A stretch of 51,987 bases of DNA from Flammeovirgaceae bacterium BBD 1991-12 (lineage in GTDB: Bacteria > Bacteroidota > Bacteroidia > Cytophagales > Cyclobacteriaceae), in contig LYSV01000029.1 in the NCBI GenBank assembly GCA_001657315.1, positions 1 through 51,987 of the forward strand, read 5' to 3'. Shown piece by piece: positions 2,338-11,077 of the stretch. Made by a program: the position numbers and the translations under genes. A model generated the notes under the pieces. The model saw only the letters and a program-made list of their open reading frames with translations. It did not search any database and was not told where the DNA came from. The number at the start of each line of letters is the position of its first letter. Within the stretch, counting starts at the first letter, position 1.

Positions 2338-2529
2338 TTGATTGGAAGAAATCATTTGAATAACGAACTACGGTTACAAGACATTGCCGCTGTGTTGAAT
2401 ACTCCGGCTCACCACCTGTCACAGATATTTGGAAGATATTTAGAAACTACCTTTTTCGATTACATGAAAAAAAGACGGATAGAAACGGCCAAAATACTGA
2501 TTATGGTCACCCAATATCAGTTATCCTGA
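2338..2529 (+). pseudogene. Remnant of an AraC-family regulator (HTH only)
   Basis: The frame encodes one helix-turn-helix and the start of the next helix of an AraC-type DNA-binding domain: LRLQDIAAVLNTPAHHLSQI, then KKRRIETAKILI. The frame is open upstream to about 2260 without any recognisable sensor domain, has only a TTG as possible start, and stops before the second HTH is complete. Its end overlaps the 3' end of the convergent Gre-like gene. In Bacteroidota this HTH usually sits at the C-terminus of a much longer protein, so this is best read as a decayed fragment, not a working small regulator. Confidence 0.6.
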
Positions 2530-2968
2530 TCTCTTTGCCATTAAAAGTAACCGTAGCTCCCTTTTCCCTGTTCAGCATCAGGCTGCCTATGGGAGATGAT
2601 GGGGATACAGCCATATAATCCTTTCCGTCTATTGTCAGTTTTCCTACACTTACGGACAAATAGAAGGTACCTATGCTGGTAGTTACCAGGCTTCCTGTAA
2701 CCACCGTGTCACAGTCAGCTAGCGGATTGATCTGGTCCAGTGCCTTTTTAAGTTTTTCTGCCTCTGCCATTTGCAGCATTTGATTTTCGATCTCCAGTTG
2801 CATCATGGCACGGCCCGTCTCGTATTTGTCACCGGCTGAACTCTTCGTTTCTTCATGGGCAGCTTCCTGGGCAAGTTCAATAGCCTCCCGTATATTGTTC
2901 ACCCTCTCTGTTATGTGCTCGCCACACAGGTGGTGCAGTTGCTGTTTTAAAACCACAGTATTCTTCAC
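2507..2968 (-). CDS. GreA/GreB-like transcription elongation factor family protein
   Basis: A 153-residue protein with an N-terminal helical hairpin (about 8-80) that includes SSAGDKYETGRAMMQ, then a beta-rich C-terminal domain (85-153) with SPIGSLMLNREKGATVTFNG, the layout of Gre factors (coiled-coil reaching into RNA polymerase, FKBP-like C-terminal domain). It is shorter than GreA and belongs to a Bacteroidota group sometimes mislabelled as 3-oxoacyl-ACP synthase. The start is GTG (2966-2968). Its strand upstream carries TTG, 21 nt, TATTTTTA, a weak match to a Bacteroidota promoter. It stands alone between the AraC remnant and the AT-rich TAC island. Confidence 0.75.
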   Translation of the reverse strand: MKNTVVLKQQLHHLCGEHITERVNNIREAIELAQEAAHEETKSSAGDKYETGRAMMQLEIENQMLQMAEAEKLKKALDQINPLADCDTVVTGSLVTTSIGTFYLSVSVGKLTIDGKDYMAVSPSSPIGSLMLNREKGATVTFNGKEIRITDIG

Positions 2969-3097: not shown

Positions 3098-3113
3098 TTA
3101 AGCAATAGCTTAA
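3098..3113. promoter_or_regulatory. Palindrome TTAAGC-aata-GCTTAA upstream of the TAC module
   Basis: Perfect 6-nt arms with a 4-nt spacer lie five bases before the GTG start of the first gene and overlap TAACTTTG (3111-3118), a match to the Bacteroidota -7 element. HTH antitoxins commonly repress their own operon through such palindromes, so this is the best operator candidate. The TAACTTTG position would put transcription start inside the annotated first codons, so the promoter assignment is uncertain. Confidence 0.45.
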
Positions 3114-3117
3114 CTTT

Positions 3118-3552
3118 GTGAGTAGAAAAGCTGTTAAATACAACATAGAAAATTTTCTAGAAAAATTTGTTATTGATAACCAGAGAGGATATGAAATATA
3201 CTTAGACATTGGAAATGAACATACTTTAGTAGATTTCATAAGGGAGAATGTCTCGAAATTTATATACGTGTTAAGGTTCATACTTGGACCCTTTCCCGGG
3301 AAAGTATACAAAAAGGGACCTCATTGCACAATGGAAATGAGGTTTCTAAAAAATGGAAAGCATCGAGGAAAAAAGGGATTGAACTCTAGGGTTTATGTTA
3401 TAACCCATGGAAATAAGTTGGTATTGTGTTTATTGGATCCTCATAAAAAGAGTGAAAAGGTTGAAAGTAAAGTTTCAGATCAACTAAAAGAGATGTGTGA
3501 TAGCGTTTATACCTATGATAACACCAATACCAAAAATCTAATTGAAATATGA
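3118..3552 (+). CDS. Putative toxin of a toxin-antitoxin-chaperone module
   Basis: A 144-residue basic protein that I do not recognise by family. GTG at 3118 is the only usable start, since a stop (TAG) lies four codons upstream in frame. The C-terminal half has a pattern like RelE/HigB-type mRNA interferases: an MEMRF strand near 71, a basic turn KHRGKKG, then SRVYVIT and KLVLCLLD strands followed by HKKSEK, comparable in outline to the LELR, RVLFF and KNQQK positions of HigB. That similarity is an inference without alignment. It overlaps the HTH gene by 4 nt (ATGA), the tight coupling usual in toxin-antitoxin pairs, and the region is clearly AT-richer than its surroundings. Confidence 0.6.
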   Translation: MSRKAVKYNIENFLEKFVIDNQRGYEIYLDIGNEHTLVDFIRENVSKFIYVLRFILGPFPGKVYKKGPHCTMEMRFLKNGKHRGKKGLNSRVYVITHGNKLVLCLLDPHKKSEKVESKVSDQLKEMCDSVYTYDNTNTKNLIEI

Positions 3553-3917
3553 AGAAGATTATGAATAACTCTGAGATAATCGAAATCGAGAAGCATTTGA
3601 TACAAGCCGAAATCGTTGAACAGCTTGAGCGAATGAGATCAGCCAATAAAATTACCAAAAAAGACCTAGCTGTGAAACTTGGTGTGAAAAACTCATTTAT
3701 CTCCCAGTTATACGGAGCAAACAAGTTTTTTAACCTCGAACACCTAGCAAAAATTCAACACTTTCTTGATGTCAAAATCAACATATCTTTCACCCCAAAA
3801 TCCGAAATTCGTTGGCAGCAAAACCAAAGAAAATTTAGAATAGAAAAGGAAAGTATCACTTCAACAGACACCCAAGTGGCCCCGGATATTCAGATCAAGC
3901 ATAAATTGGCTAGTTAG
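3549..3917 (+). CDS. HTH (Xre-type) antitoxin with C-terminal extension
   Basis: A 122-residue protein. Residues about 24-75 form an Xre-like helix-turn-helix (EQLERMRSANKITKKDLAVK, then VKNSFISQLYG, then a third helix with LAKIQHFLDV). After the domain a polar tail of roughly 40 residues includes WQQNQRKF. In chaperone-addicted antitoxins of the HigBA-SecB type, a C-terminal extension of this sort is the chaperone-addiction region that makes the antitoxin unstable unless bound by the SecB-like partner; by analogy the tail here may do the same. The gene overlaps the toxin candidate by 4 nt and is followed after 20 nt by the SecB-like gene. ATG codons at residues 1 and 5 are both possible starts. 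Confidence 0.75.
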   Translation: MKKIMNNSEIIEIEKHLIQAEIVEQLERMRSANKITKKDLAVKLGVKNSFISQLYGANKFFNLEHLAKIQHFLDVKINISFTPKSEIRWQQNQRKFRIEKESITSTDTQVAPDIQIKHKLAS

Positions 3918-3937
3918 TCAAGATACGGAGAATTACA

Positions 3938-4450
3938 ATGTCGAAATCCAGTAAATTGATTGTTGAGAGTAAAACGAAACTATCTTATAGTCTTATGGCA
4001 ATGAGTATAGATAGTTTCATGATGAATAATGTCAAATCCCTTAGCCATAAACTGCAAAGGGACGAAGCCGGTGGTATTCTTGTTAACTATGATATTCAGG
4101 GAGGATCAGCGGCATTCGTCAACCTTAAGGTTATTCAAACTCAAATATTTGTTTCCGCTCATGGAACTGATAAGTCAGACCATGAAAAAACGCATGAAAT
4201 CTGTAGTTTGACGTGCGCTTTCGACTTCTTCATGGAGCAGTTTAATCAACTATACAATCAAGACGGGAATTTAGTAATTCCATTTAGATTGGTGTCTACC
4301 TTCACATCAATTGCCTATGGTTCTACAAGAGGTGTTTTATATACTAAAATGCTCGGAACACCTCTAGGAAACTTTTCTATGCCTCTGCTCGACCTACAAA
4401 AATTACCTCGGGAAGACCAAATTATATTGAAAGAATCTTTTATTCATTGA
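3938..4450 (+). CDS. SecB-like chaperone of a toxin-antitoxin module
   Basis: A 170-residue protein whose C-terminal part carries the typical SecB-like pattern: a polar strand pair, then IPFRLVSTFTSIAYGSTRG, then KMLGTPLGNFSMPLLDL, matching the STxRG...GTPL...P(L/I) pattern of SecB-like proteins in Bacteroidota. SecB is otherwise a proteobacterial export chaperone; solitary SecB-like genes elsewhere are often linked to toxin-antitoxin pairs (HigB-HigA-Rv1957 in Mycobacterium tuberculosis is the model). Here it is third in a toxin-antitoxin-chaperone order. It is expected to bind the antitoxin tail, protect it from proteolysis and help it fold. I see no signal peptide or membrane segment. Confidence 0.7.
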   Translation: MSKSSKLIVESKTKLSYSLMAMSIDSFMMNNVKSLSHKLQRDEAGGILVNYDIQGGSAAFVNLKVIQTQIFVSAHGTDKSDHEKTHEICSLTCAFDFFMEQFNQLYNQDGNLVIPFRLVSTFTSIAYGSTRGVLYTKMLGTPLGNFSMPLLDLQKLPREDQIILKESFIH

Positions 4451-4523: not shown

Positions 4524-5537
4524 ATGAAATACAAACCTCTTGGCCGCAGTGGCCTGATCGTTTCAGAACTGGCATTGGGCACCATGCTTTATGGTGAAGA
4601 AACCGGACGTGGCACGGATGAGAAGGTTGCCCAAAGGCAGATTGACTATTTTCTGGATCAGGGTGGCAATCATATCGACTGTGCTGATGTCTATGCCAGT
4701 GGCTGCTCGGAGGAGATCGTTGGCAGAACGCTCAAGGGAAAGCGTGACAATGTAGTACTGGCTACTAAGGTAAGATTTCCGACAGGTGAAGATGTCAATG
4801 CACAGGGACTGTCCAGAAGACATATTATACAGAACGTGGAAGAATGCCTGAAAAGACTCCAGACTGATTATATCGATCTTTTTTACATGCATTGCTGGGA
4901 CCCCGTCACGCCCATAGAAGAATCCCTGAGAGCTTTTGAAGATCTGGTAACCACAGGCAAGGTCAGGTACACCGGCGTTTCCAATTTTAAGGCATGGCAG
5001 GTCATGAAAGCGCTGGGTATCAGTGACCAGAACCGATGGGTAAGGTTTATTGCAGCCCAGTACCAGTACAGCCTGGTAAAACGGGATATTGAACACGAGT
5101 ACAGCGATCTTTTTAAAAGTGAAGGTTTGGGACTGGTTCCCTGGGGACCTTTGGGTGGAGGATTTCTGAGTGGCAAGTACCATCCTGACCAAAAGCCTAC
5201 GGACGAAGGCAGGATCGCCACTACAGCGGAGCACACTGAAGAAGCATGGGAAAGAAGAAATACTGACCAAAACTGGAAGGTGCTGGAGGAGGTGAATGCG
5301 CTGGCAAAAAAGTATGAAGCCACTATTCCTCAGGTAGCACTTACCTGGCTCAGGCAACAGCCAAACGTAAGCTCTGTCATACTGGGCGCACGCACCTTTG
5401 AACAGCTTGAAGATAATTTGGGCTCCGCCCATTTGGAGCTGTCCCTTGAGGAGTTGAAAAAACTTAATGAGCTCAGCACCTTACCGGAGCTTTATCCCTA
5501 TCGTATGATCGAAGCCTATGCCAGTCGTGAATTCTGA
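4524..5537 (+). CDS. Aldo/keto reductase
   Basis: A 337-residue NAD(P)H-dependent oxidoreductase with the full catalytic tetrad: D52 and Y57 in IDCADVY, K82 in ATKVR and H123 in YMHCWD. The opening MKYKPLGRSGLIVSELALGT and the late PNVSSVILGART (cofactor phosphate region) are typical of the AKR TIM barrel. Family members reduce aldehydes and ketones; the substrate is unknown. It is probably the first gene of a four-gene run, since the next gene (DUF985) starts 20 nt before its stop and the following two are separated by 0-1 nt. Confidence 0.93.
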   Translation: MKYKPLGRSGLIVSELALGTMLYGEETGRGTDEKVAQRQIDYFLDQGGNHIDCADVYASGCSEEIVGRTLKGKRDNVVLATKVRFPTGEDVNAQGLSRRHIIQNVEECLKRLQTDYIDLFYMHCWDPVTPIEESLRAFEDLVTTGKVRYTGVSNFKAWQVMKALGISDQNRWVRFIAAQYQYSLVKRDIEHEYSDLFKSEGLGLVPWGPLGGGFLSGKYHPDQKPTDEGRIATTAEHTEEAWERRNTDQNWKVLEEVNALAKKYEATIPQVALTWLRQQPNVSSVILGARTFEQLEDNLGSAHLELSLEELKKLNELSTLPELYPYRMIEAYASREF

Positions 5538-10537: not shown

Positions 10538-10999
10538 ATGCCACAACTTGTTATCGGAAGCTTTAAGGAATTTGAACAATATGTAGGGAAAGACCTTGGT
10601 ATATCTGACTGGCTCGAGATCACACAGGAGCAGGTAACACAGTTTGCCGATGCCACACTCGACCACCAGTGGATACATCTGGACCCGGAAAAAGCGAAGG
10701 AGGGTCCTTTTGGTACTACGATTGCACACGGTTATCTCACACTGTCCATAGCACCATACCTCTGGAAGCAAATTGCTGAGATACGCAATCTTAAAATGAT
10801 GATCAACTACGGGATAGAAAAGCTGAAGTTCAACCAGCCGGTAAAAGTAGGCGGGCAGGTGAGGTTAAAGGCCTTTCTCAATTCCCTTATCGACCTCAGG
10901 GGGATCACAAAGGCACAGCTTGATATCACATTGGAGATCAGGGACAATCCCAAGCCGGCCTACACGGCTTCACTGATCTTCCTGTATCATTTTGAATGA
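10538..10999 (+). CDS. MaoC-family (R)-enoyl-CoA hydratase
   Basis: A 153-residue single hot-dog domain. The hydratase-2 motif is present in the form FADATLDHQWIHLDP, giving the catalytic pair D42 and H47, followed by GPFGTTIAHGYLTLSIAP, the characteristic second segment. Enzymes of this type hydrate trans-2-enoyl-CoA to (R)-3-hydroxyacyl-CoA. Length matches the family (about 150), and the start MPQLVIGSFKEFEQYVGKDL is also typical. No neighbouring fatty-acid genes are present to narrow the pathway. Confidence 0.92.
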   Translation: MPQLVIGSFKEFEQYVGKDLGISDWLEITQEQVTQFADATLDHQWIHLDPEKAKEGPFGTTIAHGYLTLSIAPYLWKQIAEIRNLKMMINYGIEKLKFNQPVKVGGQVRLKAFLNSLIDLRGITKAQLDITLEIRDNPKPAYTASLIFLYHFE

Positions 11000-11077
11000 T
11001 CTAAGACGAAAAAAAAATCTGGTGACCTTGTGATGTTTAGTCCGTTTTGGAGACTAATATGTTAAAACAAGATCACT

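Follow-up and report, generated by a model that had tools for sequence, protein, structure and literature searches.

A probable toxin-antitoxin-chaperone operon with a toxin of predicted HigB/RelE fold in a Flammeovirgaceae bacterium

Positions 3118-4450 of a 51,987-nucleotide (nt) stretch of DNA from Flammeovirgaceae bacterium BBD 1991-12 (contig LYSV01000029.1; the whole stretch is called the window below) very probably constitute a tripartite toxin-antitoxin-chaperone (TAC) operon. In this arrangement, the antitoxin would depend on the chaperone and carry a ClpXP-type degron, such that loss of chaperone protection would release a toxin of predicted HigB/RelE fold. The observations behind this proposal are the gene order, the predicted fold, a family of related loci, the conservation of the operator, the co-occurrence of a type of antitoxin tail end with the chaperone, the separate ancestry of chaperone and toxin-antitoxin pair, and two congeners in which the site is empty. 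TACs generally include toxin-antitoxin pairs of the HigBA, HicAB or MqsRA kinds (PMC5105189), and by its predicted fold the module fits the HigBA kind. This kind is known; what is added is a HigB-fold family that curated models do not cover, joined in the window to a chaperone of another clade.

Module layout and toxin family

The toxin gene (3118-3552, forward strand) begins with GTG and encodes 144 amino acids. It is followed by an antitoxin gene (3549-3917, forward) for a 122-residue protein with a helix-turn-helix (HTH) domain at about residues 26-77 (3624-3779) and a tail, and then by a chaperone gene (3938-4450, forward) for a SecB-like protein of 170 residues in the PDC-M64C clade. In the list of open reading frames (ORFs) all three genes are co-directional; the first two overlap by 4 nt, and a gap of 20 nt separates the second from the third. 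GC content is 0.30-0.37 across the module compared with 0.41-0.52 on both flanks, measured in 500-base segments. A preliminary description of this DNA had proposed a TAC module with this three-gene layout, overlap, gap, upstream palindrome and AT-rich island, all of which are borne out by the ORF, sequence and GC checks. Together with the operator, the genes are supported as a single TAC operon comprising toxin, antitoxin and SecB-like gene. The operon, the toxin fold and a chain of profile comparisons leading to SecB all agree with the proposed module, and a second locus (L026) is arranged alike.

The same description judged the toxin to be unfamiliar and not recognizable as a HigB. This is correct for sequence models, given that no relevant family was found in Pfam, PADLOC, NCBIfam or PHROGs, but not for structure: the predicted fold is that of HigB/RelE, and among structures it comes closest to the toxin of the best-studied TAC. 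A new toxin fold is therefore rejected. The window toxin has no match to Pfam Gp49 (PF05973), above its gathering score or otherwise; among relatives, one (L037) scores 18.2 bits where 23.9 would be required, and one of the 46 toxins in alignment A7 matches at E 0.06. Other weak Pfam matches of family toxins, such as PIN_11 (3 of 46, best E 0.027), are put down to chance. PADLOC gave no match to the PDC-M64A and PDC-M64B models, and membership in the PDC-M64 toxin family was rejected (hhalign E 0.028 and 0.11, probabilities below 2%). Sequence searches of the PDB with the toxin, the chaperone and profiles A2 and A7 yielded nothing useful.

When 395 genomes of the class were searched with the window toxin, one other locus emerged (L026, E 0.0012). 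Its layout is the same, with a 144-residue toxin, a 4-nt overlap, a 152-residue HTH protein, an 11-nt gap and a 159-residue chaperone. Stepwise alignments then enlarged the family: A1 added two more loci among 98 genomes of the window's family, A5, at E ≤0.01, matched 14 of the 395 genomes of the class (the weaker matches doubtful), and A6 recovered 60 loci in 84,980 species genomes. Members include loci from Algoriphagus, Belliella, Nafulsella and Lutibacter. A scan of genome contigs with the window toxin alone returned 33 stretches, none of which was confirmed. As a guard against drift, a profile was built from 54 toxins of the A6 loci alone, without those of the window and L026; it gave 19.9 bits to the window toxin and 67.7 to that of L026, compared with 8.7 for the best of 3000 shuffled sequences. 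No description of this toxin family was found in the papers searched, and one may exist in subscription papers. At the loci of two distant members (L037, 2233-2619, and L039, 2359-2748) a third gene of about 128 codons takes the place of the SecB-like gene; its DUF6941 matches fall below the cut-off (E 5.6e-4 and 8.9e-5, respectively), and its product is possibly a different antitoxin partner.

Chaperone ancestry and antitoxin tails

The third protein matches PADLOC PDC-M64C (E 3e-10) and no Pfam or NCBIfam model, curated SecB models included. Its relationship to SecB is seen through intermediates. The M64C type aligns with the chaperone type usual in the toxin family at E 3.6e-10, and the latter aligns with PF02556 proteins at E 1.5e-8, in a step for which the ORF at each locus was chosen by the family profile and 8 of 10 loci were used; direct comparison of the M64C type with PF02556 proteins in that step gave E 0.0027. 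These comparisons point to remote homology between the third protein and SecB. The SecB-like character first proposed for 3938-4450 gains support from the profile chain; structure prediction was uninformative. In a PDB search with profile A8, an unrelated adhesin (E 0.00031) ranked above E. coli-type SecB (5jtl, 1qyn; E 0.0047). The chaperone has a conserved C-terminal block, STRGVL...GT...LP...L (about 4322-4408, forward). A PHROGs tail-fibre match (E 0.026) is put down to chance. SecB had been described as otherwise rare in Bacteroidota. Of 295 genomes of the class, 13 have a PF02556 match, which exceeds the cut-off in 12, and the window's genome has none; PDC-M64C-type proteins occur in 29 of the 295.

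A tree built from 51 chaperones divides the type usual in the family (33 proteins) from the PDC-M64C type (16) with 100/100 support. The window and L026 chaperones fall within the PDC-M64C type, where they are not adjacent to each other. The antitoxins of these two loci score 73.3 and 67.4 bits with the family antitoxin profile, built without the window antitoxin, compared with 31.7 and 31.4 bits with the M64-type profile; the window antitoxin also matches Pfam HTH_26 (E 1.2e-4). Profile comparison found no relation between M64-type toxins and the window's toxin family. Because the toxins and antitoxins belong to the family and the chaperones to the PDC-M64C type, the toxin-antitoxin pair and the chaperone differ in history. 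Their exact positions are uncertain because the window proteins sit on long branches (2.51 in the chaperone tree and 3.7 in the toxin tree). The same genome carries a second complete TAC (L116; G000 C49, about 10621-11073), with a 157-residue toxin, a 131-residue HTH protein ending in KTA and a 157-residue chaperone that matches PDC-M64C at E 7.3e-30.

For the comparison of antitoxin tails, 77 scan rows less five repeats of the window and L026 gave 72 loci, from which six cut by contig ends (L064, L066, L078, L087, L099, L100) and ten near-duplicates were removed to leave 56 modules. A chaperone was detected in 36 of these; the other 20 had no match to the chaperone profile within 1200 nt downstream, a definition that a very divergent chaperone could escape. 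The preliminary description would have been contradicted by genes that mostly occur apart. Toxin and antitoxin are instead kept together throughout the 72 loci, with a toxin lacking an antitoxin gene only where a contig end is close by, although the chaperone is the less constant member. In the 35 modules for which both coordinates are available, its gene starts between 26 nt ahead of the antitoxin end and 20 nt past it. At one locus (L023, 856-1731; G277), a single 291-residue ORF seems to encode both an HTH antitoxin and a SecB-like chaperone, and so may be a naturally occurring fusion of the two.

The two groups of modules differ in how the antitoxin ends. An alanine within the last three residues, together with no charge in the last two, a criterion framed after the tails were seen, characterizes 35 of the 36 chaperone-bearing modules (the exception being L026) and none of the 20 others. 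Alanine is the last residue in 18/36 and 1/20, respectively, and a charge occupies one of the last two positions in 0/36 and 16/20. Median antitoxin length is 151 residues with a chaperone and 130 without (p 1.9e-6, a value that ignores kinship). Judged by tail end and median length, the C-terminal extension that marks a TAC antitoxin is therefore absent from the chaperone-free relatives. The expectation, set beforehand, that the tail would be confined to chaperone carriers is upheld for its end but not for the tail as a whole, whose sequence is not conserved. Among M64-type antitoxins, 10 of 16 end in the same manner.

A toxin tree of 55 of the 56 modules (L038, a fragment, was left out) implies 11 changes of chaperone state on the best tree and at least five on well-supported branches. 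Such branches yield five independent pairs, in which the tail end follows the chaperone in 4.9 on average and never goes the opposite way (median p 0.0625). The toxins of Algoriphagus locisalis (L050) and A. antarcticus, for example, are sisters (95/82 support). In A. locisalis (3423-4134) the chaperone gene is absent and the antitoxin ends in GSKSE, versus AMAG in A. antarcticus, while other Algoriphagus keep both chaperone and tail end. This locus appears to be a natural case of chaperone loss with an altered tail. Chaperone addiction has been demonstrated by transferring the tail of a mycobacterial antitoxin to ordinary antitoxins (PMC5105189), and evolution seems to have made and reversed comparable changes several times within this one family. 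The repeated gain and loss provides matched pairs, such as A. antarcticus with and A. locisalis without a chaperone, for a direct test of chaperone need.

Operator, proposed mechanism and alternatives

In the conserved operator-promoter (3098-3118, forward), the palindrome TTAAGC-AATA-GCTTAA (3098-3113) runs into a -7 box of Bacteroidota type, TAACTTTG (3111-3118), and this box in turn overlaps the GTG start of the toxin gene. The motif TTAASCWATAGSTTAAYTTTG, derived from the same loci, is present with at most two mismatches at 46 of 55 toxin starts, of which 33 belong to loci with a chaperone and 13 to loci without one (L095, which lacks upstream sequence, was left out), compared with a mean of 0.00 in shuffled sequences. 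Such retention at toxin starts supports control by the antitoxin. The perfect operator core occurs once in the 8.6-Mb genome. Allowing one mismatch adds one site, as does the backwards control, and this site (L105; G000 C83, about 10123), upstream of a small gene pair that resembles DUF433/DUF5615, is attributed to chance. The 3' part of TTAASCWATAGSTTAAYTTTG agrees with the -7 box of Bacteroidota (TAnnTTTG). In 43 of the 46 loci the start codon is found between 3 nt ahead of the motif end and 4 nt beyond it, which points to a toxin mRNA with no leader or almost none. Leaderless mRNAs are uncommon in flavobacteria, amounting to 5.5% of mRNAs in F. psychrophilum (PMC9723704).

We hypothesize that the HTH antitoxin neutralizes the toxin and, by acting at the palindrome that covers the promoter, keeps the operon repressed, and that its tail makes it depend on the SecB-like chaperone. 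The last residues, KLAS (3903-3914, forward), could serve as a ClpXP-type degron hidden by the bound chaperone, by analogy with CmdA and HigA1. If the chaperone were drawn away, perhaps by a phage structural protein as in related systems, the antitoxin would be degraded and the toxin would halt translation. As described for TACs (PMC5105189, PMC6377645, PMC11618068; Mets et al. 2024 as cited in PMC11980606), the chaperone binds the antitoxin tail and shields it from aggregation and protease, and toxin release is brought about by a competitor, for instance a structural protein of a phage. A possible new TAC type in which the chaperone guards the antitoxin had also been suggested; such guarding is not new, because the chaperones of known TACs do the same (PMC5105189, PMC11618068). 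The degron idea is likewise known: CmdA is described as ending in LAA, a ClpXP recognition sequence, like the antitoxins of other known TACs, and defence requires ClpP (PMC11618068). What is added here is a comparison of tails with and without a chaperone inside one family.

Several known systems resemble the module in part. E. coli HigBAC likewise combines a HigB-type toxin, HigA and a SecB-like chaperone, and senses a phage tail protein (Mets et al. 2024 as cited in PMC11980606). E. coli CmdTAC shares the three-gene plan and the degradation of CmdA by ClpP once the chaperone is withdrawn, but CmdT is an mRNA ADP-ribosyltransferase (PMC11618068), unlike the predicted HigB-type fold here. By phmmer against PDB chains, the window toxin and chaperone have no detectable sequence similarity to the M. 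tuberculosis TAC (HigB1-HigA1-SecBTA, Rv1955-Rv1956-Rv1957), and the window operator and promoter differ in being of Bacteroidota type. PDC-M64 shares the chaperone type but not the toxin. The Algoriphagus, Belliella, Nafulsella and Lutibacter loci share the toxin and antitoxin family, the operator and, in chaperone carriers, the tail-end type, whereas their chaperones form the separate clade or were not detected.

A bolder extension, offered tentatively and somewhat more likely to fail than to hold, is that chaperone and degron tail form a removable sensor cassette that is repeatedly gained or lost, so that unrelated chaperones fit one toxin-antitoxin pair, under a single conserved operator into which -7 box and start codon are fused and with a nearly or fully leaderless mRNA. 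The relatives do suggest that such chaperones come and go. Three observations qualify the overall reading: 20 of the 56 modules lack a detectable chaperone; the window antitoxin, at 122 residues, is the shortest of the 36 chaperone-bearing ones; and most start codons predicted in the family would fall ahead of the 5' end of the transcript if the -7 box were spaced from it by 4-5 nt, as is usual (box consensus and spacing from Flavobacterium johnsoniae; PMC6847099).

Phage defence is not the only role that a TAC of this design could have. The same operon might instead serve genetic addiction or stress-induced growth arrest, which we regard as a real but less probable possibility. The module stands alone between ordinary genes, outside any defence island, congeners have empty sites, no phage record or viral contig carries the toxin family, and the M. 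tuberculosis TAC has been described as stress-responsive. On the other hand, CmdTAC (PMC11618068) and HigBAC (PMC11980606) are described as anti-phage systems, the chaperone belongs to a PADLOC defence-candidate family, and restriction-modification models match some flanking proteins of relatives. Bacteroidota modules with HigB-fold toxins, unnamed by four family libraries in the members scanned, are candidates for phage defence.

The toxin is most likely a ribosome-dependent mRNA endonuclease, as suggested by its fold and conserved basic residues. Candidate active-site residues are K66, R75, R91, K110 and K114; R91 and K110 are invariant and position 75 is K or R in 46 of 46 toxins, with a correspondence to HigB1/RelE drawn by spacing, without superposition. 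A RelE/ParE-fold protein lacking mRNase activity, whether inactive or directed at another target as ParE is, seems unlikely. Still less probable is an ordinary toxin-antitoxin pair beside an independent SecB-type chaperone for protein export that does not control the antitoxin: chaperone-free relatives, the 20-nt gap and the foreign chaperone clade would suit such a pair, but the antitoxin tail end accompanies the chaperone and changes with it on the toxin tree, chaperone loss in A. locisalis came with an altered tail, and the chaperone start keeps close to the antitoxin end across the 35 modules.

Insertion site and genomic surroundings

The insertion site of the TAC operon is marked by two genes outside it. 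To the left lies a gene (2507-2968, reverse strand) with a weak match to the Pfam GreA_GreB C-terminal domain (E 0.0017), and to the right an aldo/keto reductase gene (4524-5537, forward; Pfam Aldo_ket_red, E 9.6e-80). Homologues of both lie side by side in 2 of 14 other genomes of the genus (G501 C45 and G502 C133), separated by 134 and 52 nt, respectively, versus 1555 nt in the window; the remaining 12 have no such pair among the matches listed. The empty site in two congeners indicates that the module either arrived at this position or was lost from it.

Carriage by phages or plasmids is rejected: searches with the window toxin through 72,556 plasmid records, 50,697 phage records and viral contigs were negative, and the viral contigs also lack matches to toxin alignment A6 and the exact operator string. 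The chaperone has one weak match among plasmid records (Persicobacter, E 3e-3).

Around 59 loci, 187 flanking ORFs were collected and 107 scanned; single PADLOC type I restriction-modification models match up to 4 of these 107 proteins, a count made without a control set. At one locus (L036, 2067-3272), an ORF upstream of the toxin resembles, by eye only, a protein found at another (L047, 1572-2966), where a type I restriction specificity subunit (PADLOC, E 1.2e-106) is encoded directly upstream of the toxin gene.
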